DNA of 32,376 bases. Origin: Pseudomonadota bacterium (GTDB lineage Bacteria > Desulfobacterota > Desulfobacteria > Desulfobacterales > Desulfobacteraceae). The translations under genes were made by a program, and so were the position numbers. Below, piece by piece: positions 11,353 to 28,691 of the stretch (position 1 is the stretch's first letter; each line of letters starts with the position of its first letter). The notes beneath the pieces were generated by a model that worked only from the letters and a program-made list of their open reading frames with translations, did not search any database and was not told where the DNA came from. Location: the NCBI GenBank assembly GCA_018821715.1, contig JAHJLN010000170.1, positions 1-32,376 on the forward strand. Direction: 5' to 3'.

Positions 11353-11396
11353 TTAGGGTTACCCTGATTGACAGGGACAGAAAAACTCGATAAAAA
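11353..11396 (+). promoter_or_regulatory. Promoter with palindromic operator (site A)
   Basis: AGGGTTACCCT (11355-11365) is a near-perfect palindrome and is followed by GATTGACA. TTGACA (11368-11373) forms a perfect -35 box, and a weak -10 box (TAAAAA, 11391-11396) lies 17 bases downstream. The same arrangement, palindrome then GATTGA overlapping the -35 box, recurs at 17722-17741 (minus strand) and 18186-18205 (plus strand). The predicted transcript start falls just before a pair of hairpins ending in a terminator. Confidence 0.45.
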
Positions 11397-11400
11397 AAAG

Positions 11401-14596: not shown

Positions 14597-15685
14597 TTAC
14601 TCCATCCTGACCCTAAAAATTCTATTAATACTCATTCCATCCGTTTCAAAAACAAATGAATCATCAAGGATAGCATCCTCTGTGTCTTCTGTTTCTCCAT
14701 CATCTGTCCTAAAAGTTTTACTTTCAGAGATACCGACTTCCTTTAATCGGAATAATGCTTCAGCTGTTGGATGCCCATGCCCAAATCCTGCAGCGATGAC
14801 TGCATACTCAGGATTTATTGCTTTCAGGAATGCCATTGATGATGCACCGTTGCTGCCATGGTGAGGGACCTGGAGAACAGTGGATTGCAAATTGAATTGA
14901 TTCCCGGCATACAGATGTCTTGAAACCAGCTCAAGCTCTTCACTGTCACATTCATAAAGCCCCTTGCCCTCATTAGATGTTTCCAAATCTCTGCCGTTGA
15001 TATCACCTGTAATCAAAAATGAAATGTCCTTAAATATAAACTTGAACACCAGAGAAGCATTGTTTCTTATGAGGCTCTCATCAAATCGTCTGTTGGAGAT
15101 GGGATCTCTTTCAGGTGGTTGGCTATCCGTATTGAGCAACGATACCTTAACGTCATCAGAATCATTGAAGGTGTAAGAGTCATCAATCACAACGACATCC
15201 CCGACCTGATTCCAATTGTTTAATGGGATCTTTATTGTGCACCCCTCTTCTACCTGAACACGATTTTCAAGAAATTTCTTCTTCCAATAACCTGTTGGGG
15301 TAAGGGCTTCATTGTCATAGCCTGAATACCAAAATTCTTTAACAGCATAGCTATCAAAGATTTTCATCATGCCATAGAAATGGTCATTGTCGGGATGGGT
15401 TACCAGTGCAAGATCAATATTGGAATTTTTTGGGTGAAAATGATCAACATAATCAATGATCTTTTCACCTGCTTCTTTGCCACCATCAATGAATATGTTT
15501 TTGCGGTCATTTGGTGTCTGGATGAAAATGGCAAGGCCGGTACCAACATCAATGAAATGAACCCTGAGTTTTGTTTTATCGAGTGTGGTTACGGCCTCAT
15601 TCACAGAAAGCTCTGTTAATTCAGCATGGCCAATTCCAATGAAAAAAAATACGATTATTGCTATGACTGCGGCAATACGTTTCAT
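14597..15685 (-). CDS. Exported ComEC-like metallo-beta-lactamase-fold protein
   Basis: A signal peptide (MKRIAAVIAIIVFFFIGIGHA) predicts export. The mature part has the order of the MBL domain of ComEC/Rec2: RVHFIDVGTGLAIFI (about 41-55), an IFIDGG strand, the metal motif THPDNDHFYG (His97, Asp99, Asp101, His102) and later FLITGDIN and the VPHHGSNGAS motif. ComEC's MBL domain is thought to degrade or process DNA during uptake; stand-alone secreted relatives are mostly uncharacterised hydrolases. It lies in a six-gene minus-strand operon between the DUF72 gene and a small zinc ribbon. A DNA- or nucleotide-directed hydrolase in the periplasm is the likeliest role, inferred from fold only. Confidence 0.82.
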   Translation of the reverse strand: MKRIAAVIAIIVFFFIGIGHAELTELSVNEAVTTLDKTKLRVHFIDVGTGLAIFIQTPNDRKNIFIDGGKEAGEKIIDYVDHFHPKNSNIDLALVTHPDNDHFYGMMKIFDSYAVKEFWYSGYDNEALTPTGYWKKKFLENRVQVEEGCTIKIPLNNWNQVGDVVVIDDSYTFNDSDDVKVSLLNTDSQPPERDPISNRRFDESLIRNNASLVFKFIFKDISFLITGDINGRDLETSNEGKGLYECDSEELELVSRHLYAGNQFNLQSTVLQVPHHGSNGASSMAFLKAINPEYAVIAAGFGHGHPTAEALFRLKEVGISESKTFRTDDGETEDTEDAILDDSFVFETDGMSINRIFRVRME

Positions 15686-15726
15686 GGCTTCTCCTTTTTT
15701 CCCTGGTATTTCATGGATTCTAACCT

Positions 15727-16602
15727 TTAATTGAAAGCACCGTTTAAAAATATTTTCAAAAATCTGTTGATTGTCAAAGGGGCAGATCCTTCATAATGAT
15801 TATTGACACTGAGGGTTACCTTGACTTCTTTTGAAAGCAGATCGTCAATCATTCTTTTCAGGCTGTGCAGTTCTCCATCTTTGGGATCAACAATCACATC
15901 CCATTGATTTTTGGTTTGTTGCTCCATACCTTTCCGGTCAGGTCCATGCAATCGGATAACAGTATGCTTCTTGATGAATTCTTTAAAATGGCCGTAAACC
16001 CCAAATATCGAAGGCATCCAGTATCCCTGTATGAACACATGGGACAGGTTCATATGCTCAAGGAACTCAAAGTATGGCTTATTCAAATAATTCTGATTCC
16101 GTGTTTCAATGCAATAGTGAAATCTTGGAGGCAGTTTCCGGCAGAACTCCTGTAATCGATCTTGAAAGGCCATTTGATTCGGCATCTTTTGTTTGTTGAG
16201 ATATTCAAACTGGAAGATCAGTGAGTTGATTTGCTTGGCCATGGGCTCCAATACTTTCAGGAAATCTTCCATCAGATCATTTGACAGGAAATGAGGATTG
16301 ACCTCCAATGGTCCTTTGCCGTATTGATGAGTCAGTGTGATTGCATTTGGCACCTTGATACTGAATCGGAAATTCTTTGGAACTGATCCCACATACTCAG
16401 CAACAACTTCAGGATTCGGCATGACAACCTTTTCCCCAAACAGTGACCAGAACCACTGATCAACTTCTACAATGGAGTAATGCTTGGCGTATTCCGAAAG
16501 TTGATTGCTGCCAACATCCTCCGAATAAACAAGACCTTTCCATGAGTCATGCTTCCAGCTGCAGGTTCCTATCCTTATGGATTCCGGTAAGCGGTTCGTC
16601 AT
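15727..16602 (-). CDS. DUF72 (YecE-like) protein
   Basis: The 291-residue protein has the DUF72 hallmarks: IRIGTCSWKHDSWKGLVY at the start, YAKHYSIVEVDQWFW, a FRFSIKVPNAITLTHQ segment, FQFEYLN and FHYCIETRN, then VIRLHGPDRKG near the end. DUF72 proteins fold as TIM barrels, are widespread and have no established reaction. Its ATG overlaps the stop of the upstream repeat-rich zinc protein in an ATGA arrangement, so the two are co-translated. About 40 bases separate it from the MBL-fold gene downstream. Confidence 0.88.
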   Translation of the reverse strand: MTNRLPESIRIGTCSWKHDSWKGLVYSEDVGSNQLSEYAKHYSIVEVDQWFWSLFGEKVVMPNPEVVAEYVGSVPKNFRFSIKVPNAITLTHQYGKGPLEVNPHFLSNDLMEDFLKVLEPMAKQINSLIFQFEYLNKQKMPNQMAFQDRLQEFCRKLPPRFHYCIETRNQNYLNKPYFEFLEHMNLSHVFIQGYWMPSIFGVYGHFKEFIKKHTVIRLHGPDRKGMEQQTKNQWDVIVDPKDGELHSLKRMIDDLLSKEVKVTLSVNNHYEGSAPLTINRFLKIFLNGAFN

Positions 16603-17156
16603 CCTGTTTCCTTTTTTTTCTGCCTGTATTCCTGCTGTTTCTTTTGCAACCTTTCCTTATTTTTTAAATAGTATGCTCTCCGTTGCTCCCTGATTTTTTC
16701 CTTGTTCTTACGTCTATATTCACGGCGTTTCTGTAGGATTTTTTCTTTGTTTTCCTGATAATAAGAGATAACCCTTTCAATGTTCTCCTCCCTGTTTTTA
16801 TTGTATCTCTCACGATCCCGCTTTCGTTCTCGTTCAATGTTTGCTTGGTAATAGTTTTTTTGCTTTTGTTTGACCACATCTCTATTTTCTTCACGATACT
16901 GCCTTGCTTTGAGGAGGATTCTTTCCCTGTTTTTTTGATAGTATTCCTTATACGGCTTTCTTTTAGCGTCACTTTTGGAGTGCTTCAACAGGTCACACCG
17001 AAGGCAGCCATATCCTTTTGTTCGTCTGGGTGCTATATGCCCATTTTTACAAAGTTTACCGGTGAAGTAATGAGAATGTCCGGCAAATTCAGCCTCTTTT
17101 GCATTAGAGTGCATCTGATCTATTGTGAGCTTATCGGGGCCGTACGCTTTGCTCAT
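16599..17156 (-). CDS. Zinc-finger protein with seven 15-residue basic repeats
   Basis: The N-terminus contains YFTGKLCKNGHIAPRRTKG and CLRC (Cys36, His40, Cys51, Cys54). This Cys/His module is also found at the N-terminus of phage and intron HNH-type endonucleases. Residues 72-176 then form seven exact-length 15-residue units starting YYQKN, YREEN, YYQAN, RYNKN, YYQEN, YRRKN and YYLKN, rich in Arg/Lys/Glu and predicted to be helical. No nuclease catalytic motif follows. A DNA- or RNA-binding rod is a reasonable guess. The gene overlaps the DUF72 start by four bases and begins six bases after the 69-residue zinc-ribbon gene. Confidence 0.72.
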   Translation of the reverse strand: MSKAYGPDKLTIDQMHSNAKEAEFAGHSHYFTGKLCKNGHIAPRRTKGYGCLRCDLLKHSKSDAKRKPYKEYYQKNRERILLKARQYREENRDVVKQKQKNYYQANIERERKRDRERYNKNREENIERVISYYQENKEKILQKRREYRRKNKEKIREQRRAYYLKNKERLQKKQQEYRQKKKETG

Positions 17157-17162
17157 TCAGGA

Positions 17163-17372
17163 TTACCCCACAATAACCAAGCAGTCACATTTGGGACACT
17201 TTACTTTCAAACCCAACAGCAAGCCGATTCCCAAAGCTACCCCACAGTTTAAACAATAGAAGGTCTTAAACAATTCACCTTCAGGTTGTCTTATGTCTTC
17301 TCTCGCAGTCCCGCAAGTAGGACAGTAAAGAGTTGAGCTGTCTTCGCTGACACCGGTCGTCTTTTTATCCAT
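17163..17372 (-). CDS. Small triple-CxxC zinc-ribbon protein
   Basis: This 69-residue protein has three CxxC pairs: CPTC (17-20), CLNC (40-43) and CPKC (59-62, then another Cys at 64). A hydrophobic stretch GVALGIGLLLGL lies between the second and third pair. The C-terminal VKCPKCDCLVIV resembles the end of Com, the zinc-binding translational activator of phage Mu. The gene sits between the 91-residue gene and the repeat-rich zinc protein, with short gaps on both sides, as the second gene of the operon. The function is unknown. Confidence 0.6.
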   Translation of the reverse strand: MDKKTTGVSEDSSTLYCPTCGTAREDIRQPEGELFKTFYCLNCGVALGIGLLLGLKVKCPKCDCLVIVG

Positions 17373-17388: not shown

Positions 17389-17664
17389 TTACTTCTGGTC
17401 TTCCTCCGGTTCAGCCCAAAGGATATGACGCTTATTCACCATCAGTGTTTTGTGTTTTACCGGATTTTCATAGCCATTGTGGTTAACTGTTGCATTTATA
17501 ATCACAAGGAAAGGTTCTTCTTTGCTTGCAACAATTTCACTCAGCCGATCATACCCCGGTGATCTTTTTATATTTACCTGGCCGTTTATTCGACTGCCAT
17601 CAACCATTTTTAACCGGATAATACGGGGTTCAATCTCTTTATCGATTTTTGATTCCGGAGTCAT
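17389..17664 (-). CDS. Small conserved beta-rich protein, first gene of cargo operon
   Basis: The 91-residue protein contains IIRLKMVDGSRINGQVNI, then GYDRLSEIVASKEEPFLVII and NKRHILWAEP. It recalls small LSm-like or DUF6812-type proteins that begin with a 'v.LmDGs.i.G.v.' strand pair and end with 'VNK..I..v.p', but I cannot name a function. The ATG has AAAGGGAG ahead of it and lies about 26 bases after the start predicted from promoter site C. It is the promoter-proximal gene of the six-gene minus-strand operon. Confidence 0.6.
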   Translation of the reverse strand: MTPESKIDKEIEPRIIRLKMVDGSRINGQVNIKRSPGYDRLSEIVASKEEPFLVIINATVNHNGYENPVKHKTLMVNKRHILWAEPEEDQK

Positions 17665-17696: not shown

Positions 17697-17741
17697 TTCA
17701 TATGATAAAAAAGGTGTTTTTTCAATCGGGGAAAACCCTGA
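17697..17741 (-). promoter_or_regulatory. Promoter with palindromic operator (site C) of the cargo operon
   Basis: Reading the minus strand, TCAGGGTTTTCCCCGATTGA (17741-17722) overlaps a -35 box TTGAAA (17725-17720). A -10 box TATGAA (17702-17697) follows after 17 bases. The 20-base operator is identical, in opposite orientation, to the one at 18186-18205. Transcription would start near 17690, just ahead of the 91-residue gene. Confidence 0.55.
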
Positions 17742-17883
17742 ATTCTTCCCGCTCTTTCAATTGACTTTACCGTCAAAGAAACTGGTTTGAAATTTAAAGG
17801 ATCATTGAATAATAAATATCGATGCTTATTTTTATATCTATCAAAATGATTTATCTCCTTTAAACCATACACAGAGAGGATGA

Positions 17884-18087
17884 ATGGATAATTTAGATAC
17901 TGCAACGATTAAAACTCCGCCGATCCAATGTAATACGGATCTAAAAACATACCGCTGCCCTCATTGCCACAGGTTTCTTTTCAAAGGAAATGTCAAAAAT
18001 TTGAATATGGTGTGTCATCATTGTCAAAAATTTATAAGTGCTGACAATAATGAACTTATGAGCTCCGGAAAAATCAGCATCTCCTGA
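17884..18087 (+). CDS. Com-like zinc-finger protein
   Basis: The 67-residue protein has YRCPHCHRFLFKGNVKNL followed by MVCHHCQKFI, with Cys25, Cys28, Cys44 and Cys47. This is the layout of phage Mu Com (RCxxCxxLLxxG......xKCPRCxxxN), a zinc-binding translational activator of the mom gene. AGAGAGGA stands just before the ATG. It faces away from the cargo operon, and the two copies of the 20-base operator flank it at 17722-17741 and 18186-18205 in opposite orientation. No mom-like gene is visible. A weak C-rich hairpin followed by CTTTTTTT (18107-18114) may terminate it. Confidence 0.65.
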   Translation: MDNLDTATIKTPPIQCNTDLKTYRCPHCHRFLFKGNVKNLNMVCHHCQKFISADNNELMSSGKISIS

Positions 18088-18185
18088 ACAGAAGCATTCC
18101 TGTCTTTTTTTATTTGCATGAAGTAATAAAAAAGTTTCATAAGATTCTTTTCTGTTTAAAAAACCCTTATTTTTATTGCAAAAAT

Positions 18186-18230
18186 CAGGGTTTTCCCCGA
18201 TTGACCGGATCTTTCTCAAAAGATATAAAT
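18186..18230 (+). promoter_or_regulatory. Promoter with palindromic operator (site B) of the HU gene
   Basis: TCAGGGTTTTCCCCGATTGA (18186-18205) overlaps the -35 box TTGACC (18202-18207), and TATAAA (18225-18230) follows after exactly 17 bases. Transcription would start near 18237. The leader to the HU start is about 170 bases and contains three hairpins. Confidence 0.6.
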
Positions 18231-18249
18231 AAATGAAAAAAGATTTCAG

Positions 18250-18372
18250 GCCCTCACGGGCTCCTCCGCTGACAATCTCTTTTTTTACCCGGGACAGGAC
18301 TTTGGTCCTGTCCTGTTGTTTGGGATATAACCTTTAGTCTTGAAATATTTTATCGAGACCGGTAAAGGTTAT
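18250..18372 (+). promoter_or_regulatory. Structured leader of the HU/IHF-like gene
   Basis: Three hairpins lie between the promoter and the gene. GCCC-TCAC-GGGC spans 18250-18261. GGACAGGAC (18292-18300) pairs perfectly with GTCCTGTCC (18305-18313) over a four-base loop. ATAACCTTTA (18327-18336) pairs perfectly with TAAAGGTTAT (18363-18372), with a further inner GTCTTGA/TCGAGAC pairing. None is followed by a T run, so they are more likely translational or stability elements, or protein sites, than terminators. I recognise no known riboswitch. No separate gene is visible between 18088 and 18409. Confidence 0.45.
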
Positions 18373-18409
18373 GTCAGTGTTAAACCTTTTATGGATGAGG
18401 ACAGAAACA

Positions 18410-18694
18410 GTGAACAAGCTGGAACTGATTCAAGAATTTAAAAACAAATGCAACCTGACCACGCAGGAAGCATCAGAGGTTGTTGAGCTTTTTTTTAAGG
18501 AAATGATTGATGCCTTTGTTAATGGCGAAAGGGTTGAAATAAGAGGCTTATTTTCTTTCTACATCAAAGAATACGAAGGCTACACCGGACGGAATCCTAA
18601 GACCGGCGAGAAGGTCCGGGTCGGTTCAAAAAAATTGCCCTTTTTCAAATGCGGCAAAGAATTGAAAAAACGGGTTGATTACCTGGCCAATTAG
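18410..18694 (+). CDS. HU/IHF-family DNA-binding protein
   Basis: These proteins bend and compact DNA as dimers. From the GTG at 18410 the protein is 94 residues, the usual length, and starts VNKLELIQEFKNKCNLT. It contains NGERVEIRGLFSFYIKEYEG and the DNA-contact arm tip GRNPKTGEKVRV, then FFKCGKELKKRVDYL. The GTG is preferred over the ATGs at 18371 and 18395 because TGAGGA lies about eight bases before it and because homologues begin at this point. The gene has its own promoter, which shares an operator with the cargo operon, and it converges with the transfer operon ending at 18756. IHF-type proteins commonly assist integration and relaxosome formation on mobile elements. Confidence 0.9.
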   Translation: MNKLELIQEFKNKCNLTTQEASEVVELFFKEMIDAFVNGERVEIRGLFSFYIKEYEGYTGRNPKTGEKVRVGSKKLPFFKCGKELKKRVDYLAN

Positions 18695-18755: not shown

Positions 18756-19997
18756 CTACTGATCAATAGCCGTCACCACCGGGACCCCGAACAAACCAGC
18801 CCAGGCAGATACGCAATCTCTTTGGATTCTTAGCAATGACGTATCCTTTGACCACCAGTGGTTGGCAACAAAAAGGATTATTTCAGGATCACCGGATAAA
18901 AAACTTTGCAGGACTGGCCAGGTCAGATACGCTTCGTAACAGACCAAGGCCGTTGCCTTTTTCCCGGCAATCTCAAAAACCGGATTATCAAACCAGTTGC
19001 TTTTAACACTGTCCTTGTCCCAGGGCCTCCACATGGCCACCGGTACAGACTGTCTTGCTTTATATAAAACAGCAAATCCATCCTTTTTCATTTCAACAAG
19101 AGCATTATAGGTTTTCAGACTCCTATCGTTTTCAGGCAGCAGCGTTGACAAAATAACACTTTGATCTTTTTTAAGACCCCGCTGCCATCTTCCCCACAAC
19201 TGTTTTGTTGAATCAAACCAGATCCCCGCTGATGTTTCCGGCAGCACCAGGGTTTTGAAATCAGACCGGCCATACTCATTATAAATCTTAATAAATTTCT
19301 GATGATCTTTATTGAACTTATCGCCCAGGTGGACAGGGTTACCGGCAAAATCTGTTGATATCCCTTTTATATTTGGAAGGTTGCTTTCAGATTCCCCGGG
19401 AGAGCTGTTAACCAGGGGCAGAGAAAACATTAAAACCATCACGATTCCGAGGGCTGCTTTATTTTTTCCGTACAGCCAAACCATTGAGCAGATCAGCAAA
19501 ATCGTTAAAAACAGCCCTGCAAATCCGGTTCCGGGGAAAAGAACCCCGGCTGCGGTCAAAGGATTTGCCCATCCGACAATACCGACCGGCGGCAGAATCA
19601 AAACAGTGAATAACAGCATGATTGCAATATAAGGATTTTTTATGTACGCGCACAAATAATAAGGCAACGACTGTATTGATCCTGCCGCCAACCAAAGGAA
19701 AACACCGTAAAAAACCGTTGCATCAAAAAAAACAGGTATGCCGGATATCAACCCCCTGGAGGCCACCAGGTGATATCCCAGACCAACCAGCCAGGCGGAT
19801 TTTTTTATGGTCGTTTTTGACCAGATAACAGGAAGCAGGACAGCCACCGGCAAATAGATGTTCCAGGCGATTAAACCGGTGGCCATGCCCAGGAGGATAC
19901 AAATACAGCTTTGTATCCTCCTGGAGGGAAAGGCTATCAGCTTTTCGGGATCTTTCAAAAAGAATTCATCTGCCGGTATTGTTTTTAATTGGTCCAT
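18756..19997 (-). CDS. traB: Conjugal transfer protein TraB (nitrilase-like membrane protein)
   Basis: The 413-residue protein has several hydrophobic segments in residues ~28-200 followed by a carbon-nitrogen hydrolase domain. The catalytic triad is visible: Glu254 in LPETSAG, Lys313 in VLYKARQ and Cys353 in LVCYEAY, with FVANHWW after it. This is the layout of apolipoprotein N-acyltransferase (Lnt) and of TraB from Ti plasmids. The position directly behind traF matches the Ti traAFB order. The start codon overlaps the end of traF. A perfect 15-base inverted repeat lies inside codons 25-37. TraB's substrate is not established; it may modify a transfer-system component. It is the last gene of the transfer operon and converges with the HU gene. 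Confidence 0.8.
   Translation of the reverse strand: MDQLKTIPADEFFLKDPEKLIAFPSRRIQSCICILLGMATGLIAWNIYLPVAVLLPVIWSKTTIKKSAWLVGLGYHLVASRGLISGIPVFFDATVFYGVFLWLAAGSIQSLPYYLCAYIKNPYIAIMLLFTVLILPPVGIVGWANPLTAAGVLFPGTGFAGLFLTILLICSMVWLYGKNKAALGIVMVLMFSLPLVNSSPGESESNLPNIKGISTDFAGNPVHLGDKFNKDHQKFIKIYNEYGRSDFKTLVLPETSAGIWFDSTKQLWGRWQRGLKKDQSVILSTLLPENDRSLKTYNALVEMKKDGFAVLYKARQSVPVAMWRPWDKDSVKSNWFDNPVFEIAGKKATALVCYEAYLTWPVLQSFLSGDPEIILFVANHWWSKDTSLLRIQRDCVSAWAGLFGVPVVTAIDQ
19889..19924 (-). promoter_or_regulatory. Perfect 15-base hairpin inside traB
   Basis: CCAGGAGGATACAAA (19889-19903) and TTTGTATCCTCCTGG (19910-19924) are perfect inverted copies with a six-base loop. In the traB mRNA the 5' arm contains AGGAGGA, a strong ribosome-site sequence, which the stem would bury. 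No start codon is well placed after it, so its purpose is unclear. Lacking a T run, it is not a standard terminator. Confidence 0.6.
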
Positions 19998-20539
19998 ACC
20001 AGCACAGGTTTTGCGGTTCCTATAACATTTTCCATGGGGATGGTATCAAAGTATCGGGAATCAAAACTGAGTGAATGCAGGGTTAAAACAAAAATGCGAT
20101 CCCTTTGGACAATGCCGTCTAAAATCTTTGGCATCGGCCGCCCTTTTGAATCGGTTTTTCGTCGTTTTGCATTCTCAACCGGCAAATTATTGATCCTGAC
20201 AATATCGTCGAAAAAAGAATAAGAATCCCCTGGCAGACCATAAACCTGTTTAAGCAACGGGATAGAATAATTAGGACAGCTTTTGTTTTCCTCCAGGTAC
20301 CCTCTTTGGATACCGAAATCCGCTATTTCCCGGGTGGGCGTGAACCACACATAATCGCCCTTTTCAATGCGGATGAAGTTTTTATCGATTTTCCACACGC
20401 CAATCGGTAAAGACGGCGTCAGGTTGAATCTCAACCCTGACTCAAAAAGCAGATATCCTGTCATTACGGTTATCGAAAATACCGTAACGCTTATCCCGGC
20501 CACTTTTTTAAACCGGTTTTTATTAAACCTTAACCGCAA
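19985..20539 (-). CDS. traF: Conjugal transfer peptidase TraF (signal-peptidase-like, S26)
   Basis: TraF of RP4 and Ti plasmids is an S26-type peptidase that matures the pilin TrbC, including its cyclisation in RP4. This 184-residue protein has one N-terminal membrane segment (~14-33). The nucleophile Ser43 is in NLTPSLPIGVWK, and the general base Lys97 is in PLLKQVYGLPGD. Near the end, DSRYFDTIPMENVIG matches the conserved box E region. Its stop overlaps the traB start, and its own start overlaps the traL end. The substrate gene trbC is not in the window. Confidence 0.88.
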   Translation of the reverse strand: MRLRFNKNRFKKVAGISVTVFSITVMTGYLLFESGLRFNLTPSLPIGVWKIDKNFIRIEKGDYVWFTPTREIADFGIQRGYLEENKSCPNYSIPLLKQVYGLPGDSYSFFDDIVRINNLPVENAKRRKTDSKGRPMPKILDGIVQRDRIFVLTLHSLSFDSRYFDTIPMENVIGTAKPVLVWTN

Positions 20540-21273
20540 AGTGCAACCTCTTCAAACTGAACAAACATCTGTTCCTTGAAAAGATTCAACCTTCGCTTGA
20601 CCATAAATTTTAAAGCATCGTCGCAGGCCACTTCGTTAAACGTTTTATTTTCAGTGAACATCATTTTGATGTCCTCTCCAAAGGTGTCGATGCTTTGTTC
20701 CGGAATAATAATTTTGGCAAAAATCCTGTCCCGGATATCCTTATAAAAACCAAAGGTCTCAATGTCTTTGCCGAGTTTTCCAAAATATTCATTAATCCAT
20801 ATGACAATCTTTATTTTTTCATCAAACTGATTGGCAATGCTGATCAGGCCCTTGGCTGTTTCCTTGAAGGCCTGGCCGCCTGTGAGCGGAACATGGATAA
20901 AAACATCATAGCCGGCCAGGACATTGATAATTTCATTTTCAATGATATAATTGGATATGCTCAGGAACCCCCCTGCCCCGTTGTCGATAATGAAATTTTT
21001 ATCCGATGACAAAATGCTTTCGATAAGCTCATCAAAAATTCTTTCATTGATCCGGTTGGGAGAACTTAAAAGGTTTAAATGCTCAACCTTTAAATCCTTA
21101 TATTTTGCAAATGTCGGGTTTATGGGATCTGTATCAATACAGCACAGCTCCCCGTGCTCCCTCAGGTATTGTGCAAGCAGCGAGGCGACAACGCTTTTGC
21201 CGACACCCCCTTTGCCCTGCAGAACAAAATGAATCTGTTTATCAAGCGTCTGTCCGTTCTTCTGTCTGGTCAT
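20530..21273 (-). CDS. traL: Conjugal transfer protein TraL (ParA/MinD-like ATPase)
   Basis: The protein begins with the deviant Walker A HFVLQGKGGVGKSVVASLLA, followed by CIDTDPINPTF and a later IDNGAGGF. It closely parallels RP4 TraL (MVLQGKGGVGKSFIA...LCIDTDPVNATF...VIDNGA). RP4 TraL is associated with the relaxase region, and its exact role is unsettled. I prefer the ATG at 21273 (247 residues), because AAGGATG lies eight bases before it; an ATG at 21282 abuts that sequence. It lies between traG and traF; in RP4 these genes are more dispersed. Confidence 0.85.
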   Translation of the reverse strand: MTRQKNGQTLDKQIHFVLQGKGGVGKSVVASLLAQYLREHGELCCIDTDPINPTFAKYKDLKVEHLNLLSSPNRINERIFDELIESILSSDKNFIIDNGAGGFLSISNYIIENEIINVLAGYDVFIHVPLTGGQAFKETAKGLISIANQFDEKIKIVIWINEYFGKLGKDIETFGFYKDIRDRIFAKIIIPEQSIDTFGEDIKMMFTENKTFNEVACDDALKFMVKRRLNLFKEQMFVQFEEVALCG

Positions 21274-21302
21274 CTGTATCATCCTTAGTAATGTTTGTTA
21301 TA

Positions 21303-23108
21303 TCAGTTCTTCATGAGGGGTCTTAAAACCTGAGAGCACAAAGGCGGTGCTATTTGGGTTTGCCGGTGGAATTCAGGATCTTCAAAAAACAAAACCTGCA
21401 TTCCGTAAATCGGGGAATACCCGGCCACAAAAATCAGCATTACGCCCGGCTCAAGTATCCTGCCGTCTTTATCCTTGACGGCTGATTTCAATTTTAAAAT
21501 TTCATCTGCCGTCATTAACGGCCGCTGGATCTCCTGCGTTGATATGCTGACATGTTTCAGGGTCGGTGAGTGCATGCCCCCGCTTTTGGTGACGGCCTGT
21601 TTTTGAACGGTCGTGACGCCGGTCATTCTTGACAGCAATTCTGCGGTATCCATCTTTGAGGGGGCCAACGCCATTTTTATGTTGCAGGTGGAAAGGATGC
21701 TTTCATCTTTTCCATAGGTGTTGAAAAGCTGGCTGATGTCCTGGACGATAATCAAGGCCTTGATGCCGTAGCCCGGCATATAGGCAAGCTGCTTTTCAAC
21801 CATTGGCAGTTTGCCGATGGCGGTGAACTCATCCCATAAAAGAAGCAGTTTGTGTCTTTTCCTTATCTGCTCTCCCTGGTCAAAAACCATGTTATCGGTC
21901 AGTCCCAAAACGATTTGCGTCATGAGGATCCGCAAAATCGGGGTCAACCTGATCAGATCTTTGGGTTCAACACAAATATACAAAGAAACGGCGGCTTCAT
22001 TATCCATTAAATCAATAATCCTGAAATCGGATTGTCTGGTATTTTTTTCCACCACCGGATCTTTGTAAATTTCAAAAAACGCTTCGGCAGTAGAAATGAT
22101 ACTGCCCCGCTCCCGATCCGGCGTGTTTATCAAAGAGTCGGCAGCCGCATAAATATATTTATCCCGCTTGCCTCCATTATGTGTATTGTCCCGCATTTCG
22201 ATCAGATGCTGATCAACCGTCGTACTGATAAAATAAGCCAGGGTTGTCATGGTGGCCGTTTTATCCAGATACAGCATGTGCAGAATGGCGGCAGAAATAA
22301 GGCTTCTTGCTTTTTTCTTCCAATGACCGTCATAACCGTCCAGGCCTTTGCCGTCAGGGTCAATGATGATGGTTGAAAGATTTTGAGCGTCGGAAATAGC
22401 ATATTCCGTATGAATCCTGATTTCAGATAACGGGTTATACTGACAATTTTCTTTGATGGATCCGGGAGAAAATTTTAAAACCTTCTGGCCCTTGGCTTTT
22501 CGGGCTCCGGCTGTCAGTTGCCAGAGCTCCCCTTTCAAATCCATGCAGATCATGCTCTCCTGCCAGGTCAAGGCGGTCGGGATAACAACCCCCACCCCCT
22601 TGCCGGATCGGGGCGGGGCGATCATGATCGCATGGTCCGGACTGTTGCTCTGCAGATAATATTTAAAGCCTCCGGCCTGGTATCCTCCGATGATCACGCC
22701 ATTGTCGTCATCATCCTCCTGGATAATGCCCATTTCTTTGATTTCATTAAAGTTCGCCCAGGCCGCACTGCCGTGAAGGTCTTTGATAAACCTTAATGAC
22801 CGTTGCCGGTGTACGATGATGACAAAGGCAAAGATTACGACAATGCCCAGTAAGAAACCGGTGATGACAAGGGCTTCATAAAAGGTTTTCGGGTAGTGCT
22901 GATAATATTTAAAATACCAGGCAGGTCCGTTAAACGGGTTATAAAATTTTTCATACAACGGGTTGCCAAGGGCAGCATTATAGCTGAATTTATGGGCAAC
23001 ATACTGCGTATAAAAACTTAATGCCCCAAACAATACAAAAAATGCAGTGCTTAATCGGATAATGATACTTTTACGGGCCTGGTTTCTAAAAGAGTTTATG
23101 ACTCTCAT
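21303..23108 (-). CDS. traG: Type IV coupling protein TraG/VirD4
   Basis: TraG is the inner-membrane ATPase that links the relaxosome to the secretion channel. This 601-residue protein has two N-terminal membrane segments (~17-38 and ~77-100), Walker A in IMIAPPRSGKGVGVVIPT (~161-178) and Walker B in LLLLWDEFTAIGK (~421-433). Between them is the YNPLSEIR motif typical of the family. The length is slightly shorter than RP4 TraG (635). It sits between the secreted unknown protein and traL in the transfer operon. Confidence 0.95.
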   Translation of the reverse strand: MRVINSFRNQARKSIIIRLSTAFFVLFGALSFYTQYVAHKFSYNAALGNPLYEKFYNPFNGPAWYFKYYQHYPKTFYEALVITGFLLGIVVIFAFVIIVHRQRSLRFIKDLHGSAAWANFNEIKEMGIIQEDDDDNGVIIGGYQAGGFKYYLQSNSPDHAIMIAPPRSGKGVGVVIPTALTWQESMICMDLKGELWQLTAGARKAKGQKVLKFSPGSIKENCQYNPLSEIRIHTEYAISDAQNLSTIIIDPDGKGLDGYDGHWKKKARSLISAAILHMLYLDKTATMTTLAYFISTTVDQHLIEMRDNTHNGGKRDKYIYAAADSLINTPDRERGSIISTAEAFFEIYKDPVVEKNTRQSDFRIIDLMDNEAAVSLYICVEPKDLIRLTPILRILMTQIVLGLTDNMVFDQGEQIRKRHKLLLLWDEFTAIGKLPMVEKQLAYMPGYGIKALIIVQDISQLFNTYGKDESILSTCNIKMALAPSKMDTAELLSRMTGVTTVQKQAVTKSGGMHSPTLKHVSISTQEIQRPLMTADEILKLKSAVKDKDGRILEPGVMLIFVAGYSPIYGMQVLFFEDPEFHRQTQIAPPLCSQVLRPLMKN

Positions 23109-23120
23109 TTATCTGATTTC

Positions 23121-23843
23121 CTATTTTCCGCCGTGTTCCACCAGGTTGCCCTGACAGGTATTTGTTAAATCAAAGATGTTGTAATAGGCATTTTTCTGAA
23201 ACATGTTGCTTTGAGCGATTGCCCACTGCATGGTCTGTATATCCAGCAGTTTGAATCCCGGCTGCTGTTGCATCACCGGGTTGTTTTCCATGGCTTTTTG
23301 CCGGTTGATCAGATCAACGTTCTCCTGGGTCAAAAACCCATACCCGGCCATAAAATTAACGCCCAGGATTTTGTCCGGATCCGGGGCGTTGAAAAAGCTG
23401 ATGCCGTTCAAGCATACCGTTCCGGCAACGCCTTGAAGGCTATCGGGTATCGGCTGGGAAAACAATTGATACCGCCCTATGCTTCCGGGCTGAACCACAT
23501 AGTAGGACGGCTCATACAATGCCTGGTTGATATCTGTCAGCTCCCTGATTCCGCCCCCGGGAAAGAGTTGATAATATCTGACCCCGGTTTGATAGACTAC
23601 CCGGAATCCCGCATATTCAATTCTCTGCAGATTCTCATGGGCTGCAGCAGGTTTTACATCAAGGTAATATTGATATTCGACTTTTGTTCCACCTTCATCA
23701 TATCCCGTGGTTGTGATTTTTTCCTGGGTCATGATAAATGGAGAATTAGCCACACCATATGTCTGATATGTTACAGTTGTATATGCCCGGGCGTCAAAAG
23801 CCGCTCCCGCAACCAGGGCAACGATTAAAAAAAGCGTTTTCAT
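23121..23843 (-). CDS. Exported protein of unknown function in the transfer operon
   Basis: A signal peptide (MKTLFLIVALVAGAAFDARA, cut before Tyr21) predicts export. The mature part is rich in Tyr and Gln and has two cysteines, in GTVCLNG and NTCQGN, which could form a disulfide. It ends in HGGK. I know no family for it. Its place between trbI and traG, in line with and close to both, suggests a periplasmic or surface component of the transfer apparatus, possibly element-specific. Confidence 0.65.
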   Translation of the reverse strand: MKTLFLIVALVAGAAFDARAYTTVTYQTYGVANSPFIMTQEKITTTGYDEGGTKVEYQYYLDVKPAAAHENLQRIEYAGFRVVYQTGVRYYQLFPGGGIRELTDINQALYEPSYYVVQPGSIGRYQLFSQPIPDSLQGVAGTVCLNGISFFNAPDPDKILGVNFMAGYGFLTQENVDLINRQKAMENNPVMQQQPGFKLLDIQTMQWAIAQSNMFQKNAYYNIFDLTNTCQGNLVEHGGK

Positions 23844-23857
23844 TATATCCTCCGGAC

Positions 23858-25204
23858 TTAATTAATATCTGCGGTTTTCAAAAAATAGGTTGGTTTTTGA
23901 GCCGGATTATAGGGTTTCAGGCCCAGAACATCCTTTGTCAGGATGATATGCCCTTGTTTTCCCTGCCTGATGATCAGTTCCGGCTGGATATTCATTATTT
24001 TATCAATCAGCCTTGCAAAGGTTTGCTGCATCTGCTGTGCTGCGGATTTTGCCAGAGCGTCCTGGGTGGTTTCCACATTATTTTCATTATTCTTCGTATC
24101 GGTTGCCATTGTAAATCCGGCATTGACAACAGACATCAGGATAGCGGCCCCGAATATCTGGAAATAATGATTGTCCACAAGGTCTTTAAGCCCTGCGGTC
24201 CCTTCCTGATCCGTGCCGGGCATGGAGCCGACATTAAGACTTGAACCGTCCGGGAATATCAGTCTCTGCCAGGCGATCAATACCCTTTTCTGGCCAAAGA
24301 CCACCCGTGAATCATAAATGCCGTTTACCATTGTTCCCTGCGGGACCAACAGGTAATTGCCGGTGGCCGTATCATACACATTTTCCGTTACCTGTGCCTT
24401 TATCCTGCCCGGGAGATCGCTGTTGATCTTTGTGATGAGGGTCATCGGGATTAAATGCCCCTGCTTGAGCTCAAACGGGGAAACGGCTTCATGGTATGCA
24501 TTGGTCAAAGTGACGGCATCCTCGGTTGCCGTGTTCAAAAAACCCTGCTTCAACGCCTGGTCCTTTTCTTCCTGCTGACTCACCATCATGGACGGCTGCT
24601 GATATTGGGGGATTCCCGGCAATGGTCCCAATGATGAGGACGGTTGCTGACTGGACGATGTGCCCATAATGGGCACGCCGGTCGGTGCCATCTGGGCCTT
24701 AAAGGCCATTTCCCTTTTCTGGCTGGCCACTTTTTCCCTGAAAAGCTCGGCATCTGATTTTTTGGGTTCAATCTGGGGACCGGGCTCCCTGTAAAATTGC
24801 GGGGGTGACTTTTTTGCCTGTTGAAGATCCGGTTGAAGCGGCTCATTGACTGCCGCCTTTTCAAGTCCCTGGGGTTCATTATCCGGGGTTTGAACAGATG
24901 CTCCTGTTGTCTGCGGTTTTCCGGCTGCAGTTTCTTCCGGGAGTTTCTTTTCAGATCTGGCCATATCCTCAAGCGTTTTGGCGTAATTTTCGGTTAAAAA
25001 TTCAGGGGAAGGCGTGTTGTTGTTAATCGGTTGAGAATTGATGACATTGCCGCTGCCGGCAGCCTTTTGGAGCCGTTTCTGTCTTTCCGTAACCACATAG
25101 AAACAAACAATGACAACCGCAAAAACAACGGTTGAAACGATGATGACCGGCAACTTGTTAAGCCTTTTTGCTGCAGGTCTTGTCGGAATCCCTTTTGCAG
25201 TCAT
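23858..25204 (-). CDS. trbI: Conjugal transfer protein TrbI (VirB10)
   Basis: VirB10-type proteins span both membranes and form the core complex with VirB7 and VirB9. This 448-residue protein has a single membrane segment at ~19-38, a long Pro/Gln-rich linker (~60-210), and the VirB10 C-terminal domain with GHLIPMTLITKINSDLPG, VPQGTMVNGIYDS and LNVGSMPGTD. The order TM, linker, beta-barrel matches TrbI. It starts directly after trbH, with its ATG sharing the A of the trbH stop region. Confidence 0.93.
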   Translation of the reverse strand: MTAKGIPTRPAAKRLNKLPVIIVSTVVFAVVIVCFYVVTERQKRLQKAAGSGNVINSQPINNNTPSPEFLTENYAKTLEDMARSEKKLPEETAAGKPQTTGASVQTPDNEPQGLEKAAVNEPLQPDLQQAKKSPPQFYREPGPQIEPKKSDAELFREKVASQKREMAFKAQMAPTGVPIMGTSSSQQPSSSLGPLPGIPQYQQPSMMVSQQEEKDQALKQGFLNTATEDAVTLTNAYHEAVSPFELKQGHLIPMTLITKINSDLPGRIKAQVTENVYDTATGNYLLVPQGTMVNGIYDSRVVFGQKRVLIAWQRLIFPDGSSLNVGSMPGTDQEGTAGLKDLVDNHYFQIFGAAILMSVVNAGFTMATDTKNNENNVETTQDALAKSAAQQMQQTFARLIDKIMNIQPELIIRQGKQGHIILTKDVLGLKPYNPAQKPTYFLKTADIN

Positions 25205-25627
25205 TTAAATTTCTCCTTTGCAAAGTGGTGATGCAGGAGAGATCTTTCCTGTCTGTGCTTCAAATAAGAAAAAGCGTGAAAACATTGTTTTATCGAGCGT
25301 GACACAAAGATAGATCCTGTTTTCACCGTAACTTTCAACAGTAAAGGCTGTCGTGATTCCGTCCGTGTCAGACAGGCCGAACCCTCTTTTTTTCAATTCG
25401 GTCAAAACTTCATCTGCAATGGCGTTTTCACCGTCATAAACCAGGTGAATGACGGTGTTTGCAATATTTTTTTCCTGGTGGATCAGGTCAACAATTTCAA
25501 TGGCCAGTTTTTTGATGATGTCAGGGTTGCCTTCAATATCCACATAGGATGATTTTTCCTGTTTGGCAGCGCAGCTGAAGCTGATGATGCAAAGACAGGC
25601 CACCATTAAAAATTTAATCGTTTTCAT
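25205..25627 (-). CDS. trbH: TrbH-like lipoprotein
   Basis: The 140-residue protein has a lipoprotein signal ending in ISFSC (lipid-modified Cys19). The rest is a small alpha/beta domain with no catalytic motif. Its place between trbG and trbI, its size and its lipobox match TrbH of RP4 and Ti, which is the likely VirB7 counterpart that anchors the core complex at the outer membrane. The ATG overlaps the trbG stop by four bases. The symbol rests mainly on position. Confidence 0.7.
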   Translation of the reverse strand: MKTIKFLMVACLCIISFSCAAKQEKSSYVDIEGNPDIIKKLAIEIVDLIHQEKNIANTVIHLVYDGENAIADEVLTELKKRGFGLSDTDGITTAFTVESYGENRIYLCVTLDKTMFSRFFLFEAQTGKISPASPLCKGEI

Positions 25628-26484
25628 GGCTGCTTTTCCTTATGTTCAATATTTACGATGGTCTGTTTGCTGCCCACGCCGGAAATCAGCATTGCCTTGT
25701 GGAAAAGCATGTCAACCACGAATTTGTTATCCAGCAGCCTGTAATTAACGATGGCCTTCTCTTTATTTTCATCTATGACGGATAGAACAGGAACTTTTGT
25801 ATACCTTGCCTTTTCAGGCAGCTCGATAATAGTTTTTACACCGTCGTTGTAAACCCTCACAGGTTTCCAGGCCGGATCATCCCCGTCAATTTTGTAATCA
25901 AAATCAAGGCTTGCTATGGCAATTCTCTTTTGATCGTCTTCAATGGCCGGCAAGGTATTTTTCTTTGCTTTTTCCTTTTCAATGTGGTCTTCGATTTTCA
26001 GTTTTGCCACAACATCTTCATAGTGTTGAGGATATTCAAACCCGACAATACTCATGTGATCCGTTTTGGAGCTTTCGAGATTAAACCGGTAGGCCCGCTT
26101 GTTTGTCAGCACCGTAAGATTTGTTTTTAAGCCCGTATCCGTAGGCTTTACAAAAACATGAAGGGTTTTGTTTTCTCCTGAGCCGTGATAGGCAGGAGTT
26201 ACCGCCCACCGGACCGTATCACCGGCATTTATGAATTCTATGGTTTCCCCGGCCTGCAGTTCAATATCGGTGGAATGAAAAAGCTTTGTTTTTATGGTGA
26301 CGGCGGTTGCCGCATACAGATATGTTATCTTGCCGTCCAGGCTTAAAATAGGTTTTATTCTTTTATTCTGCCATTCTTCGGCTAGCTCCAGCGCTGCCCT
26401 GGTTTGTATTTCCGGCGATAACGCCCAGGCGTTGCAGATTCCAAAAACCAGGGCCAAACTCATCATTACCGCAATTTTTTTCAT
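25624..26484 (-). CDS. trbG: Conjugal transfer protein TrbG (VirB9)
   Basis: VirB9-type proteins are the outer-membrane-side part of the core complex. From the ATG at 26484 the protein is 286 residues, with a signal peptide MKKIAVMMSLALVFGICNAWA. I prefer this start to the one at 26499, because GGGAG lies about eight bases before it and it overlaps the trbF stop in an ATGA arrangement. The middle part has the TrbG pattern: TAVTIKTKLFHSTDIELQAG, then HVFVKPTDTGLKTNLTVLTN and a tail beta-region ending FHKAMLISGVGSKQTIVNI. Confidence 0.92.
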   Translation of the reverse strand: MKKIAVMMSLALVFGICNAWALSPEIQTRAALELAEEWQNKRIKPILSLDGKITYLYAATAVTIKTKLFHSTDIELQAGETIEFINAGDTVRWAVTPAYHGSGENKTLHVFVKPTDTGLKTNLTVLTNKRAYRFNLESSKTDHMSIVGFEYPQHYEDVVAKLKIEDHIEKEKAKKNTLPAIEDDQKRIAIASLDFDYKIDGDDPAWKPVRVYNDGVKTIIELPEKARYTKVPVLSVIDENKEKAIVNYRLLDNKFVVDMLFHKAMLISGVGSKQTIVNIEHKEKQP

Positions 26485-27182
26485 GATTTCTTCTCCCATT
26501 CAAAATCAATAACCCATATGCCAAACGGGTTAAGGTTCCATTGTTCCTGAGTTTCCGGGTCTTTTTTTAAAACCGTTATAATTGCCTTATAGTTTTCGGT
26601 TTTAATGACATCCCCGTTTGAAACATCTCTTGTTGTTTCTATCCATTCCACCGACCAGGTATTGTCCGTGACAGGCAATATGCTGTTTACCTGGTCCACA
26701 ATTCTTGTTTTTTTATTGATCAGCTCAAAGGGGTTGTTCTCTTTGAAATGGGCATTGAGCTTTTTTAACGATGGGGTGTTGGGCAAAAGATGTGCATAAA
26801 CCCAATTGATGTTTTGAAGCATCAGTTGCCTGTCCACAGAGGCTAACCGGTTTTTCTTTAAAAAAGATTCGAGCTCCTTTTTAATCACCTTGGTATCTGT
26901 TGTTGAGCTTTTTGATGCGATCCCGGTGTGAAGTTCCTGGCCGTCTTTGCCCAGGACAACCACATAGGGAACAACCTTGCTTTGTGATCCCTGCCAGGTA
27001 AGGCCGGCGATAGCCGCAAGCAATACGATTGCAAGAACAAAACTGAGATTGCGCCAGTTGCGCTTTCCGGAAACCGCCCGGCCGTAAACTTCGTTCCAGG
27101 CTTCCTGGGCTCTTATAAAATGCTTATGGGCATCCGGATAGCTTTCCGTAAGATCATTTTTTTTTGAAAATAATTTGTCCAT
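26481..27182 (-). CDS. trbF: Conjugal transfer protein TrbF (VirB8)
   Basis: VirB8-type proteins nucleate the secretion channel at the inner membrane. This 233-residue protein has a single membrane segment at ~43-63 (NLSFVLAIVLLAAIAGLTW) and a periplasmic domain containing WSVEWIETTRDV and NPFGIWVIDFEWEKK, typical of TrbF. The length matches the family. It starts 3 bases after the ssb stop. Confidence 0.92.
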   Translation of the reverse strand: MDKLFSKKNDLTESYPDAHKHFIRAQEAWNEVYGRAVSGKRNWRNLSFVLAIVLLAAIAGLTWQGSQSKVVPYVVVLGKDGQELHTGIASKSSTTDTKVIKKELESFLKKNRLASVDRQLMLQNINWVYAHLLPNTPSLKKLNAHFKENNPFELINKKTRIVDQVNSILPVTDNTWSVEWIETTRDVSNGDVIKTENYKAIITVLKKDPETQEQWNLNPFGIWVIDFEWEKKS

Positions 27183-27185
27183 GGC

Positions 27186-27515
27186 TTAATCTTTCGAATC
27201 CAGAAATTGAATGTCATACTGGGCCTGTACTTCAGTGATATAAAAAGTCTGGCCGTCTTTCTGGTAGCTCCTGGTGGCATTGCAGCCTTCAATAAAAATC
27301 TGACTTCCTTTTTTAAGATATTTTTGACAGGCTACTGCCCTTTTCCCGAAAACTACGATATTATGCCATTCGACCTTTTCTTTGGTGTTGCCGTCAGCGT
27401 CCTGGTAGTTGATGTTTGTGGCAAGTGTAAACCTTGCCATGGTGCTGTTGTCGTTTTCCGTTACCACCGGATCTTTCCCAAGCCGTCCGATTAAAAATAC
27501 TTTATTCAATCCCAT
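27186..27515 (-). CDS. ssb: Single-stranded DNA-binding protein lacking the acidic tail
   Basis: The protein has the SSB OB-fold pattern MGLNKVFLIGRLGKDPVV, MARFTLATNINY, EWHNIVVFGKRA and KGSQIFIEGCNATRSYQKDG, and is 109 residues long. Chromosomal SSB is about 150-180 residues and ends in an acidic DDDIPF-type tip that recruits repair proteins. This one stops at FLDSKD right after the OB fold, so that tail is absent. AAGGAG precedes the ATG. It is inserted between trbL and trbF inside the transfer operon, so it would be made together with the channel. It likely coats transferred single strands. Confidence 0.92.
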   Translation of the reverse strand: MGLNKVFLIGRLGKDPVVTENDNSTMARFTLATNINYQDADGNTKEKVEWHNIVVFGKRAVACQKYLKKGSQIFIEGCNATRSYQKDGQTFYITEVQAQYDIQFLDSKD

Positions 27516-27517
27516 GT

Positions 27518-28684
27518 TTAATCTCCTTTATCTAAATTATTAAGTTCGCTTTTTTGTCTTTGTTCTCTCAGGTTGGCATATGTTCCCCCGATGATCGGAG
27601 ACCTGAACGCCGCGGCCCTGCCCATATTATCTGCAACAGTTCTGACCCCAGCTCCTGCAATGGTGGCGATGGTACTGCCGATCCCGCCTGTGTTGCCGGG
27701 AGCTTTGGTGGCCTCTCTTAAAACAGCCATTGATTTGGCAACGCCTCCGGCTCCACCGGCAGCCATCCCGATCCCCCCCATTACCATGCCTGCTCCCATG
27801 GCAACGGCAGATCCAAGTACGCTGACGGGATTTGAGCCGAACTGACCGCCGGAAATAATCCCGCTTATTATTTCCGGTATTGTTTTCATGATGAAAAACA
27901 GCAAAAGCATGGCTATGACAAGGGCGGCAACTTCGTGCAAATCAAACTGCGCGGCGGGAATGTTTGCCCATCCGGTGAATAAATTATTGGCCATTGCGGC
28001 AATAAGCTGAATGGCCATAAGTTTTAACCCGACAGAAACGATATATTTCACAAAAGAAACCGCATAATCCTTTGACCATTCAGAACCGCCAAAACCAAGC
28101 ATAATCTGGCCGACTATCACCGCCAGATACATTTCGATCAGGACAAGAACCTGAATGGCGGTCATCAAGGCCCCTATTATGACTATCCCTATTCCTGCAA
28201 CGCCGATCATCCAGGATTGCGGACTTGTGATGGACATTTTCTGGCAGGCCGCCATATAAACATCAAAGGCGTTTTCCAAAATAGTTCCCGGCGTGATGGC
28301 CCCTGCTCCACCGGGAACATTTGCAGCAATGGTTCTGAATGAATTAACAATAGCCATCATCCACTGATTGCCATTGAGCAGCAGCGCATAGAAAAATCCG
28401 AAAAATAGAATTTTTCTTACCAGGTTAAAAACAAAATCGTAAAAATCCCCGTTTTTTAAAATGAGGACTATCCCCATGTAGGTAAAATCCAAAATGGCCA
28501 ATAACCAGAAAAGCCGTTGCGCATAGGCAGAAATTAACGGAAGCCATTGAGCAGCGGCGTTTCGATAGGTGTTTATTATGGTATCTGATAAATTGTTTGT
28601 AGGTGCGTTCGCTTGAGCAGACTCAAGCAAAATCAACATAAACAATAAAAAAAGGGAGGATAGCAAAAATGATTTTTTTCTCAT
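27518..28684 (-). CDS. trbL: Conjugal transfer protein TrbL (VirB6)
   Basis: VirB6/TrbL is the polytopic inner-membrane channel protein. The 388-residue sequence has an N-terminal hydrophobic signal (1-25, ending AQA), about five further hydrophobic segments between residues ~55 and 270, and a Gly/Ala/Met-rich stretch (AMGAGMVMGGIGMAAGGAGG) in the C-terminal part, which is characteristic of TrbL. It lies between the trbK-like lipoprotein and ssb. RP4 TrbL is longer (about 528), so this is a short version. Confidence 0.88.
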   Translation of the reverse strand: MRKKSFLLSSLFLLFMLILLESAQANAPTNNLSDTIINTYRNAAAQWLPLISAYAQRLFWLLAILDFTYMGIVLILKNGDFYDFVFNLVRKILFFGFFYALLLNGNQWMMAIVNSFRTIAANVPGGAGAITPGTILENAFDVYMAACQKMSITSPQSWMIGVAGIGIVIIGALMTAIQVLVLIEMYLAVIVGQIMLGFGGSEWSKDYAVSFVKYIVSVGLKLMAIQLIAAMANNLFTGWANIPAAQFDLHEVAALVIAMLLLFFIMKTIPEIISGIISGGQFGSNPVSVLGSAVAMGAGMVMGGIGMAAGGAGGVAKSMAVLREATKAPGNTGGIGSTIATIAGAGVRTVADNMGRAAAFRSPIIGGTYANLREQRQKSELNNLDKGD

Positions 28685-28691
28685 TTTTACA

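Follow-up and report, generated by a model that had tools for sequence, protein, structure and literature searches.

A palindromic operator-promoter probably places loci of a conjugative element within a host two-component regulon in the Desulfobacteraceae

Among described systems, the best parallel to the operator presented here is the site of SsrB, a NarL/FixJ-type regulator of Salmonella. The passages on SsrB binding in PMC2837388 describe an 18-bp palindrome with 7-4-7 organisation, tolerance of spacer deletion in the promoter tested, and a regulon of both ancestral and horizontally acquired genes; SsrB is reported to have been itself horizontally acquired (PMC4769171). The dyad analysed here has the same 7-4-7 arithmetic, with two inverted heptamers 4 bp apart. 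However, its half-site and gene order are different and there is no virulence link. Furthermore, unlike SsrB, the regulator considered here is widespread in its genus and the element looks like the newcomer. For sulfate reducers, the sections consulted on the two-component response regulators of Desulfovibrio vulgaris report mostly palindromic sites (PMC3333781). The strings GGGT, CCCT and CAGGG are absent from the main text of that paper, a weak negative that covers the main text alone, and no such dyad was met in the sections consulted of another sulfate-reducer paper (PMC11887813). In Tn4371-family integrative and conjugative elements, the element-borne traR is reported to regulate cargo (PMC11448139). 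The present locus resembles that family in tying cargo expression to a regulatory protein, but there the regulator resides on the element, whereas here it apparently belongs to a host chromosomal system. Neither this motif nor a change of spacing across a whole regulon was met in the literature listings searched, which is not proof of absence; six long forms of the motif string were unreported, and shorter forms returned only seemingly unrelated titles among the matches listed.

We consider it likely that the repeats described below are operator-promoters of a host two-component regulon activated by a NarL/FixJ regulator, with the element loci co-switched. Sequence comparison provides the motif itself, the geometry of the promoters that bear it, its spread throughout the genus, its position in the gap between regulator and kinase genes, and a matched spacing change between genera. 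The stretch analysed in full (the window) comprises 32,376 nucleotides, contig JAHJLN010000170.1 of assembly GCA_018821715.1 (C233 in our numbering). Exactly two perfect copies of TCAGGGTTTTCCCCGATTGA were present in the window, at 17722-17741 (minus strand) and 18185-18204 (plus strand), with no further match at up to three mismatches (shuffle expectation, 0.01). A preceding sequence-only reading had the first copy right and the second one base off (18186-18205). The features concerned are:

11355..11373, plus strand: third operator, 16-base form, with its dyad AGGGTTACCCTGATTG at 11355-11370
11368-11373 and 11391-11396, plus strand: third-operator promoter, -35 TTGACA, 17 bases, weak -10 TAAAAA
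11391..11480, plus strand: candidate short RNA after the third operator, with two stable predicted hairpins
14597..17372, minus strand: rest of the cargo operon, four ORFs after DUF6812
14597-15685, minus strand: cargo protein with a metallo-beta-lactamase fold
15727-16602, minus strand: cargo DUF72 protein
16599-17156, minus strand: cargo 185-aa protein
17163-17372, minus strand: cargo 69-aa protein with paired cysteines
17389..17664, minus strand: DUF6812 protein, 91 aa, first cargo gene (Pfam PF20660, 2.2e-11)
17725-17720 and 17702-17697, minus strand: copy 1 promoter, -35 TTGAAA, 17 bases, -10 TATGAA
17720..17746, minus strand: operator copy 1, AGAATTCAGGGTTTTCCCCGATTGAAA, dyad overlapping the -35 box, 1 mismatch to the extended genus pattern
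17884..18087, plus strand: Com-like zinc ribbon ORF (Pfam PF10122, 19.9 bits against a cut-off of 22.9), with a related ORF in L200
18180..18206, plus strand: operator copy 2, AAAAATCAGGGTTTTCCCCGATTGACC, 0 mismatches to the extended genus pattern
18201-18206 and 18224-18229, plus strand: copy 2 promoter, -35 TTGACC, 17 bases, -10 TATAAA
18240..18409, plus strand: HU gene 5' leader, long and predicted to form stable hairpins
18410..18694, plus strand: HU/IHF-like protein, GTG start (or ATG 18371) (Pfam PF00216, 3.1e-26)
18756..32155, minus strand: conjugation module adjoining the HU gene, including several ORFs without a match

The copy 1 promoter leads to the DUF6812 start codon at 17664, and the copy 2 promoter to the HU/IHF-like gene (start 18371 or 18410, end 18694). 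These coordinates confirm the earlier proposal that the two promoters are aimed at the cargo operon, via DUF6812, and at the HU/IHF-like gene, and the proposed overlap with the -35 box and 17-base spacing were found at both copies (TTGAAA-17-TATGAA and TTGACC-17-TATAAA). The close spacing of the cargo genes on one strand suggests that they form one operon. Amongst NCBIfam models, IHF-beta came closest to the HU/IHF-like protein, below cut-off. The fold of its ~170-base leader (18240-18420) gave z = -3.75, and that of 11400-11480, where the first hairpin has a 12-bp stem, gave z = -5.6; an Rfam scan of the window at gathering thresholds returned no match. The metallo-beta-lactamase-fold protein (14597-15685) showed weak likeness, far below cut-offs, to ComEC/Rec2 and to Avs1a-type anti-phage proteins.

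The half-sites of the third operator are one base closer together than those of the two perfect copies. TTG-17-TA geometry is kept at all four 16-base matches in the own genome (C49, C139, C202 and window 11355), and the third copy is therefore best seen as a shorter form, not as decay. The diverged third version noted earlier is real (11355-11370, with a promoter).

The motif was not confined to the window. Across the own genome (5.73 Mb), AGGGTTTWCCCYGATTG occurred 16 times at up to one mismatch and the backwards pattern not once. The whole-genome search proposed as a check in the sequence-only reading thus came out in its favour, as 14 of these 16 matches were promoter-like; the other two were not, C195 encoding the prepilin signal GFTLIE and C256 lacking flanks and box. 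TA stood at the expected -10 offset in 12 of the 14, the atypical pair being C223 (one base off) and C160 (TGCATA), with an upstream A-tract only. The gene controlled is doubtful at C1, C318, C360 and C49:71027, owing to contig ends or uncertain starts. An extended pattern made up of flanking AAAA, dyad and -10 TAT (AAAANTCAGGGTTTWCCCYGATTG-N20-TAT, up to two mismatches) was found in 24 of 389 genomes of the class, namely 21/26 from the same genus and 3/363 others, compared with 0/389 for its backwards control. Viral contigs gave no exact match to AAAANTCAGGGTTTWCCCYGATTG. A shared operator-promoter, from which one regulator over several parts of the element had been proposed, is well supported, but the motif is genus-wide and chromosomal rather than element-specific. 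Because the palindrome also precedes many ordinary chromosomal genes, including that of a kinase, the element appears to be plugged into a host control circuit.

This distribution bears on an alternative raised earlier, in which the Com-like gene sits on a small insertion and the two perfect copies are its terminal inverted repeats. The copies are indeed inverted and flank one small ORF, the Com-like gene having been found between them as described (17884-18087). However, the same block lies at many chromosomal promoters and between the regulator and kinase genes, mostly singly before a gene. The few divergent pairs lie between different genes, and no flanking pairs bounding a mobile unit were found. 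Moreover, the Com relative in L200 has one motif copy only on its contig stretch, ~4.5 kb away. We regard this explanation as extremely improbable. Two divergent motif pairs, 74-196 bases apart, resemble the window pair (G021:C29, L063; G019:C192, L124); ComEA-like genes occur at both, and a ketoacyl synthase gene also at G019.

To describe the operator-promoter, 91 distinct 17-base sites were split by eye into 72 promoter-like sites that were used, 10 prepilin sites, 8 others set aside (7 within coding or coding-like DNA, plus L041 without flanks) and 1 near a contig end. TA at the -10 offset (37) was found in 65/72, 0/10 and 0/8 of the first three groups, respectively; flanks were inspected during the split and partly decided the set-asides, and the plain all-group figure is 65/90. 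At the other offsets from 28 to 49, TA occurred in 0-42 of the 72 sites, the runners-up (42 and 32) being displaced by 2 and 3 bases. AAAA at -7 to -4 was present in 58/72, compared with 0-5 at nine control offsets and 1/18 set-aside sites. The dyad consensus, ATCAGGG-TTTW-CCCTGAT, consists of 7-4-7 inverted heptamers, whereas 16-base sites are 7-3-7; the centre of the consensus lies 31.5 bases upstream of the -10 box and at ~-43.5 relative to the inferred start. A sigma-70 layout, TTGnnn-17-TAnnnn, was found in 65/72 promoter-like sites, the TTG being built into the search pattern. A filter dropping any site able to spell GFTL was abandoned, as it kept 46/91 sites and lost true promoters; its logo consensus still agrees.

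A fixed distance to the -10 box could also mean that the conserved block is recognised by an alternative sigma factor and does not serve as an operator. This is very unlikely, since the block forms a near-perfect dyad, the -10 boxes conform to the sigma-70 type, and in the 16-base sites of the own genome the left half has moved one base while the CCCYGATTG-to--10 distance is kept. A Crp/Fnr-type factor acting on the dyad was also considered and is disfavoured by the position of the dyad centre, near -43.5, and by the linkage to a GerE regulator.

One source of false sites was the prepilin signal, whose codons (GGG TTT ACC CTG ATT GAG) mimic the motif; 10 of the 91 distinct opened sites were prepilin genes. 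This mimicry includes most opened sites from other genera, so that unfiltered counts outside the genus mislead. Order-level matches were accordingly rejected as a wider distribution, those opened from other genera being prepilin coding or inside other ORFs. GFTLIE mimicry is a general trap for GGGTTTACCCTGATTGA searches (L053, L072, L078, L079, L308 and others).

GerE-family proteins were searched for in three motif-rich genomes (G017, G025 and G006) and three with no or few sites (G001, G003 and G004). In all three motif-rich genomes, a regulator gene was found just before the gene of a 381-aa kinase, with the motif in the gap. This candidate regulator (216 aa) has a receiver and a GerE helix-turn-helix, PF00196 scoring 63.6 bits (G006:C2), 64.3 (G017:C38) and 62.2 (G025:C95) against a cut-off of 23.5, and the receiver stretch MDI[SA]MP with its aspartate is kept in 18/18 aligned orthologues. 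The kinase is a hybrid histidine kinase with HisKA, HATPase and receiver domains only and no recognised sensor domain. Relatives with solved structures matched nearly the full length of the regulator in phmmer, the best being VraR (2.5e-33) and NarL (1.3e-24), with EvgA and RcsB also matching. These and DevR share its two-domain architecture, as does ComA, another NarL/FixJ regulator; no close orthologue was present among solved structures.

Of the 26 genus genomes, 18 had the regulator at 73% identity or more; a 64% partial match (G013) came next, followed by those at no more than 50%. A dyad was recognisable behind the regulator in 17 of the 18, including a variant in G003, GGGGTTTTCCCTAATTG, that the extended-motif pattern missed; it was degenerate in G008, which has few motif sites. 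An intact kinase start followed in 15/18; the 5' part of the kinase was absent in G019 and G023, and the G008 stretch ends before any kinase start. In G013 the regulator is apparently disrupted, with motif and kinase kept. In G024:C422 (L066) only the two ends of the regulator gene are left, motif and kinase again being kept, and an assembly fault is possible there. Own-genome contig C301 opens with the codons GIVSLE-stop of the regulator C-terminus, followed by the motif and the kinase, so the missing own-genome regulator is most likely an assembly gap. Overall, the regulator was whole or partial in 20 of 21 motif-positive genomes (17 at 73% or more, plus the G000 contig end, G013 partial and the G024 ends). 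The motif-positive genome without a regulator at that identity was G022 (81% complete). Among motif-negative genomes, 1/5 had the regulator (G003).

Could the dyad be bound by a different protein, be it a response-regulator paralogue or a dimeric factor encoded elsewhere, with the regulator's neighbour merely one target? Each genome examined encodes 6 to 15 GerE proteins, any of which could read the dyad, and the own genome has 15. The motif was found without the regulator in G022, and outside the genus no dyad follows the regulator in 9/18 stretches. Against this stand the motif behind the regulator in 17/18 genus genomes, their co-distribution, and the matched spacing described below, and we judge this explanation quite unlikely. 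The GATTG/AATTG variant in the gap agreed with same-genome sites in 46/52 comparisons (permutation p 0.008); by eye, no clean match was seen between the AATTG variant and residues of the regulator recognition helix.

The linked regulator could equally be followed beyond the genus. At 50% identity or more it was detected in 27 further genomes across the class, the same family contributing 24. The DNA behind it was examined in 18 of the 27; nine had a dyad, and all nine were of the 16-base form (four g36, one g37, two g9, and G222 and G112 from other families). The nine gaps without a dyad came from six g8 genomes, G028 (g4), G195 (g9) and G078 (another family). None of the six g8 gaps had a dyad, yet G235 and G237, both of g8, have 4 and 9 exact 16-base matches elsewhere. 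The 381-aa kinase was not found after the regulator within the stretches examined in G222, G112 and G078. In G222 (L190), a tandem variant, AGGGTTTTCCCTATTGC then AGGGTTTTCCCCTATTGC, lies upstream of an ORF with a PEP-CTERM-like tail (by eye).

Genome-wide matches shifted in the same direction. Unfiltered exact matches in the genus were predominantly 17-base (54/64, with 8 16-base and 2 15-base), whereas those in the other family genera searched were predominantly 16-base (36/44, with 4 17-base, 2 15-base and 2 18-base). The difference (54/8 vs 4/36) gave a Fisher p = 2e-15, with related sites treated as independent, and at least one of the four outside 17-base matches is prepilin coding (L308). 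Amongst 21 opened outside 16-base matches, a mixed set (20 from the family and 1 from G078), TA was at the exact offset in 12/21 and AAAA adjoined the dyad in 13/21. As gap dyads and genome-wide matches both shift spacing, operator and regulator appear to have moved in concert.

The genes behind the operator were diverse. The kinase gene itself was a target in 14 genomes and 4 more. Further genus targets included ComEA-like helix-hairpin-helix proteins (7 loci), ketoacyl synthase (3), Rhs/SpvB-like proteins (3) and polysaccharide epimerase (2). Single targets encoded a PEP-CTERM protein, ATP sulfurylase/APS kinase, a GFO/IDH oxidoreductase, a DUF6765 protein, a cold-shock protein and, below cut-off, a TIR-like protein. 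No Pfam match was obtained for 9/28 genus proteins scanned. At the seven ComEA-like loci the motif-to-start distance was 112-188 bases, long like the HU leader. The regulon looks like one of surface and signalling functions, without an established common pathway. A PEP-CTERM/exosortase explanation of the whole regulon was rejected, only one PEP-CTERM gene (L107) being present among the 28 proteins scanned.

Two short ORFs of the own genome, L155:8155-8415 (G000:C440) and L156:2085-2312 (G000:C223), lie under the same operator. Their likeness to the kinase is confined to its dimerisation/phospho-acceptor domain (40 and 44% identity), in which the acceptor histidine has been lost, AHD having become VND and ASD; no further kinase domains were detected downstream in adjoining DNA at E 1e-4. 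From sequence, it is possible that these short proteins act as inhibitors or decoys of the 381-aa kinase.

Mating-pair formation and coupling genes are present on the element (TrbI, CagX, VirB8, TrbL, CagE/TrbE/VirB and T4SS-DNA_transf). The families of its conjugation module comprise TraB-like, ParA-like, T4SS coupling protein, TrbI, CagX, VirB8, SSB, TrbL and VirB4/TrbE. The last conjugation ORF ends 221 bases before the contig end, and the element may be a conjugative plasmid rather than an integrative and conjugative element. A second, related conjugation module occurs in the own genome (G000:C315, L293), with TraB 66-67% identical and a distant HU-like match at 28%. No motif was found at up to two mismatches, in either spacing form, in the TraB-adjoining stretches of C315 (7.5 kb), G003 and G014, G003 having one weak 3-mismatch match and G014 being a 3.1-kb contig only. 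We therefore rejected the motif as a part of the transfer backbone; the operator seems instead to belong to the cargo/HU segment. Both window copies read CCCC, with C as their twelfth base. This variant predominates in the own genome, where it occurs in 5/8 listed sites outside the window versus 2/65 listed sites from other genus genomes (p = 7e-5). This shared preference suggests that the element uses the local dialect. A joint reading, which combines a concerted, regulon-wide change of operator spacing with an element in the local dialect and two short kinase-like dampers, is tentative, and we would put it somewhat short of an even chance. In this reading, most exact sites have a 4-base centre in this genus and a 3-base one in sister genera, their distance to the -35/-10 boxes being preserved, and each lineage bears a record of the change in the dyad next to the regulator gene.

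Relatives of the cargo gene include Desulfobacula MAGs. The closest other cargo operon was found in another genus, on a 12.9-kb contig of a Desulfocicer vacuolatum MAG (L200, G367:C63). There, DUF6812, a relative of the 185-aa protein and DUF72 (81% identical) follow an exact 17-base motif. No other motif match was found in G367 with the extended or exact patterns, which fits transfer of the cargo operon and its promoter from the genus. This site carries the caveat that, if the ORF of an Mrr-type gene is extended upstream, the site can be read as part of it (GFSLIE), and its -10, TACAAG, is weak; a start of that gene with a good ribosome site lies downstream of the motif. Next to DUF6812 (L200:3762-8526) are an Mrr-type restriction endonuclease, a DNA/RNA non-specific endonuclease and the Com-like ORF, and a neighbouring ORF is one we take to be ADP-ribosylglycohydrolase-like. 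These neighbouring genes suggest that the L200 cargo is nucleic-acid-directed or defence-like. At four further DUF6812 loci (L198, L199, L201 and L202), the 17-base form, the only one searched, had no match at up to three mismatches in adjoining DNA.

Considered together, these observations suggest the following model. The 381-aa kinase, when stimulated, would phosphorylate the NarL/FixJ regulator, a dimer of which would bind the consensus dyad ~43.5 bases before the inferred start, overlapping the -35 box. From this class-II-like position the bound regulator would probably activate weak promoters, typically TTGATT-17-TATAnn. The kinase gene would be amplified through the dyad in its own gap, and the regulator would also control a gene set in which surface-related, secreted or signalling products seem frequent. 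The cargo operon, the HU-like gene and, via the shorter-spaced operator, the candidate short RNA would be switched together with the host regulon. The same regulator and dyad could alternatively act in repression, with the dimer on the -35 box keeping RNA polymerase out as long as the kinase receives no stimulus. In the 72 promoter-like sites the dyad adjoins the -35 TTG, as the search pattern dictates, and many -10 boxes are good. However, beyond TTG the -35 boxes are weak, as for activator-dependent promoters (the commonest are TTGATT, 18, and TTGAAA, 14, compared with TTGACA in 4 of 72), and the dyad centre near -43.5 is close to the position of class II activators. In addition, many characterised NarL/FixJ relatives are activators. 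Repression is thus unlikely in our view, and activation remains our preferred sign. Physical binding, the sign of regulation, the signal and the gain of the sites by the element, rather than their having always been there, are what we infer from these patterns.

The element loci have probably been recruited into a host two-component regulon. This provides a defined operator, a testable regulator and a target list for an uncharacterised regulon of (probably) sulfate-reducing bacteria, together with a conjugative element shown using an apparent host operator. Finally, the spacing change between sister genera makes it testable how a whole regulon and its dimeric regulator reach a new operator geometry together.
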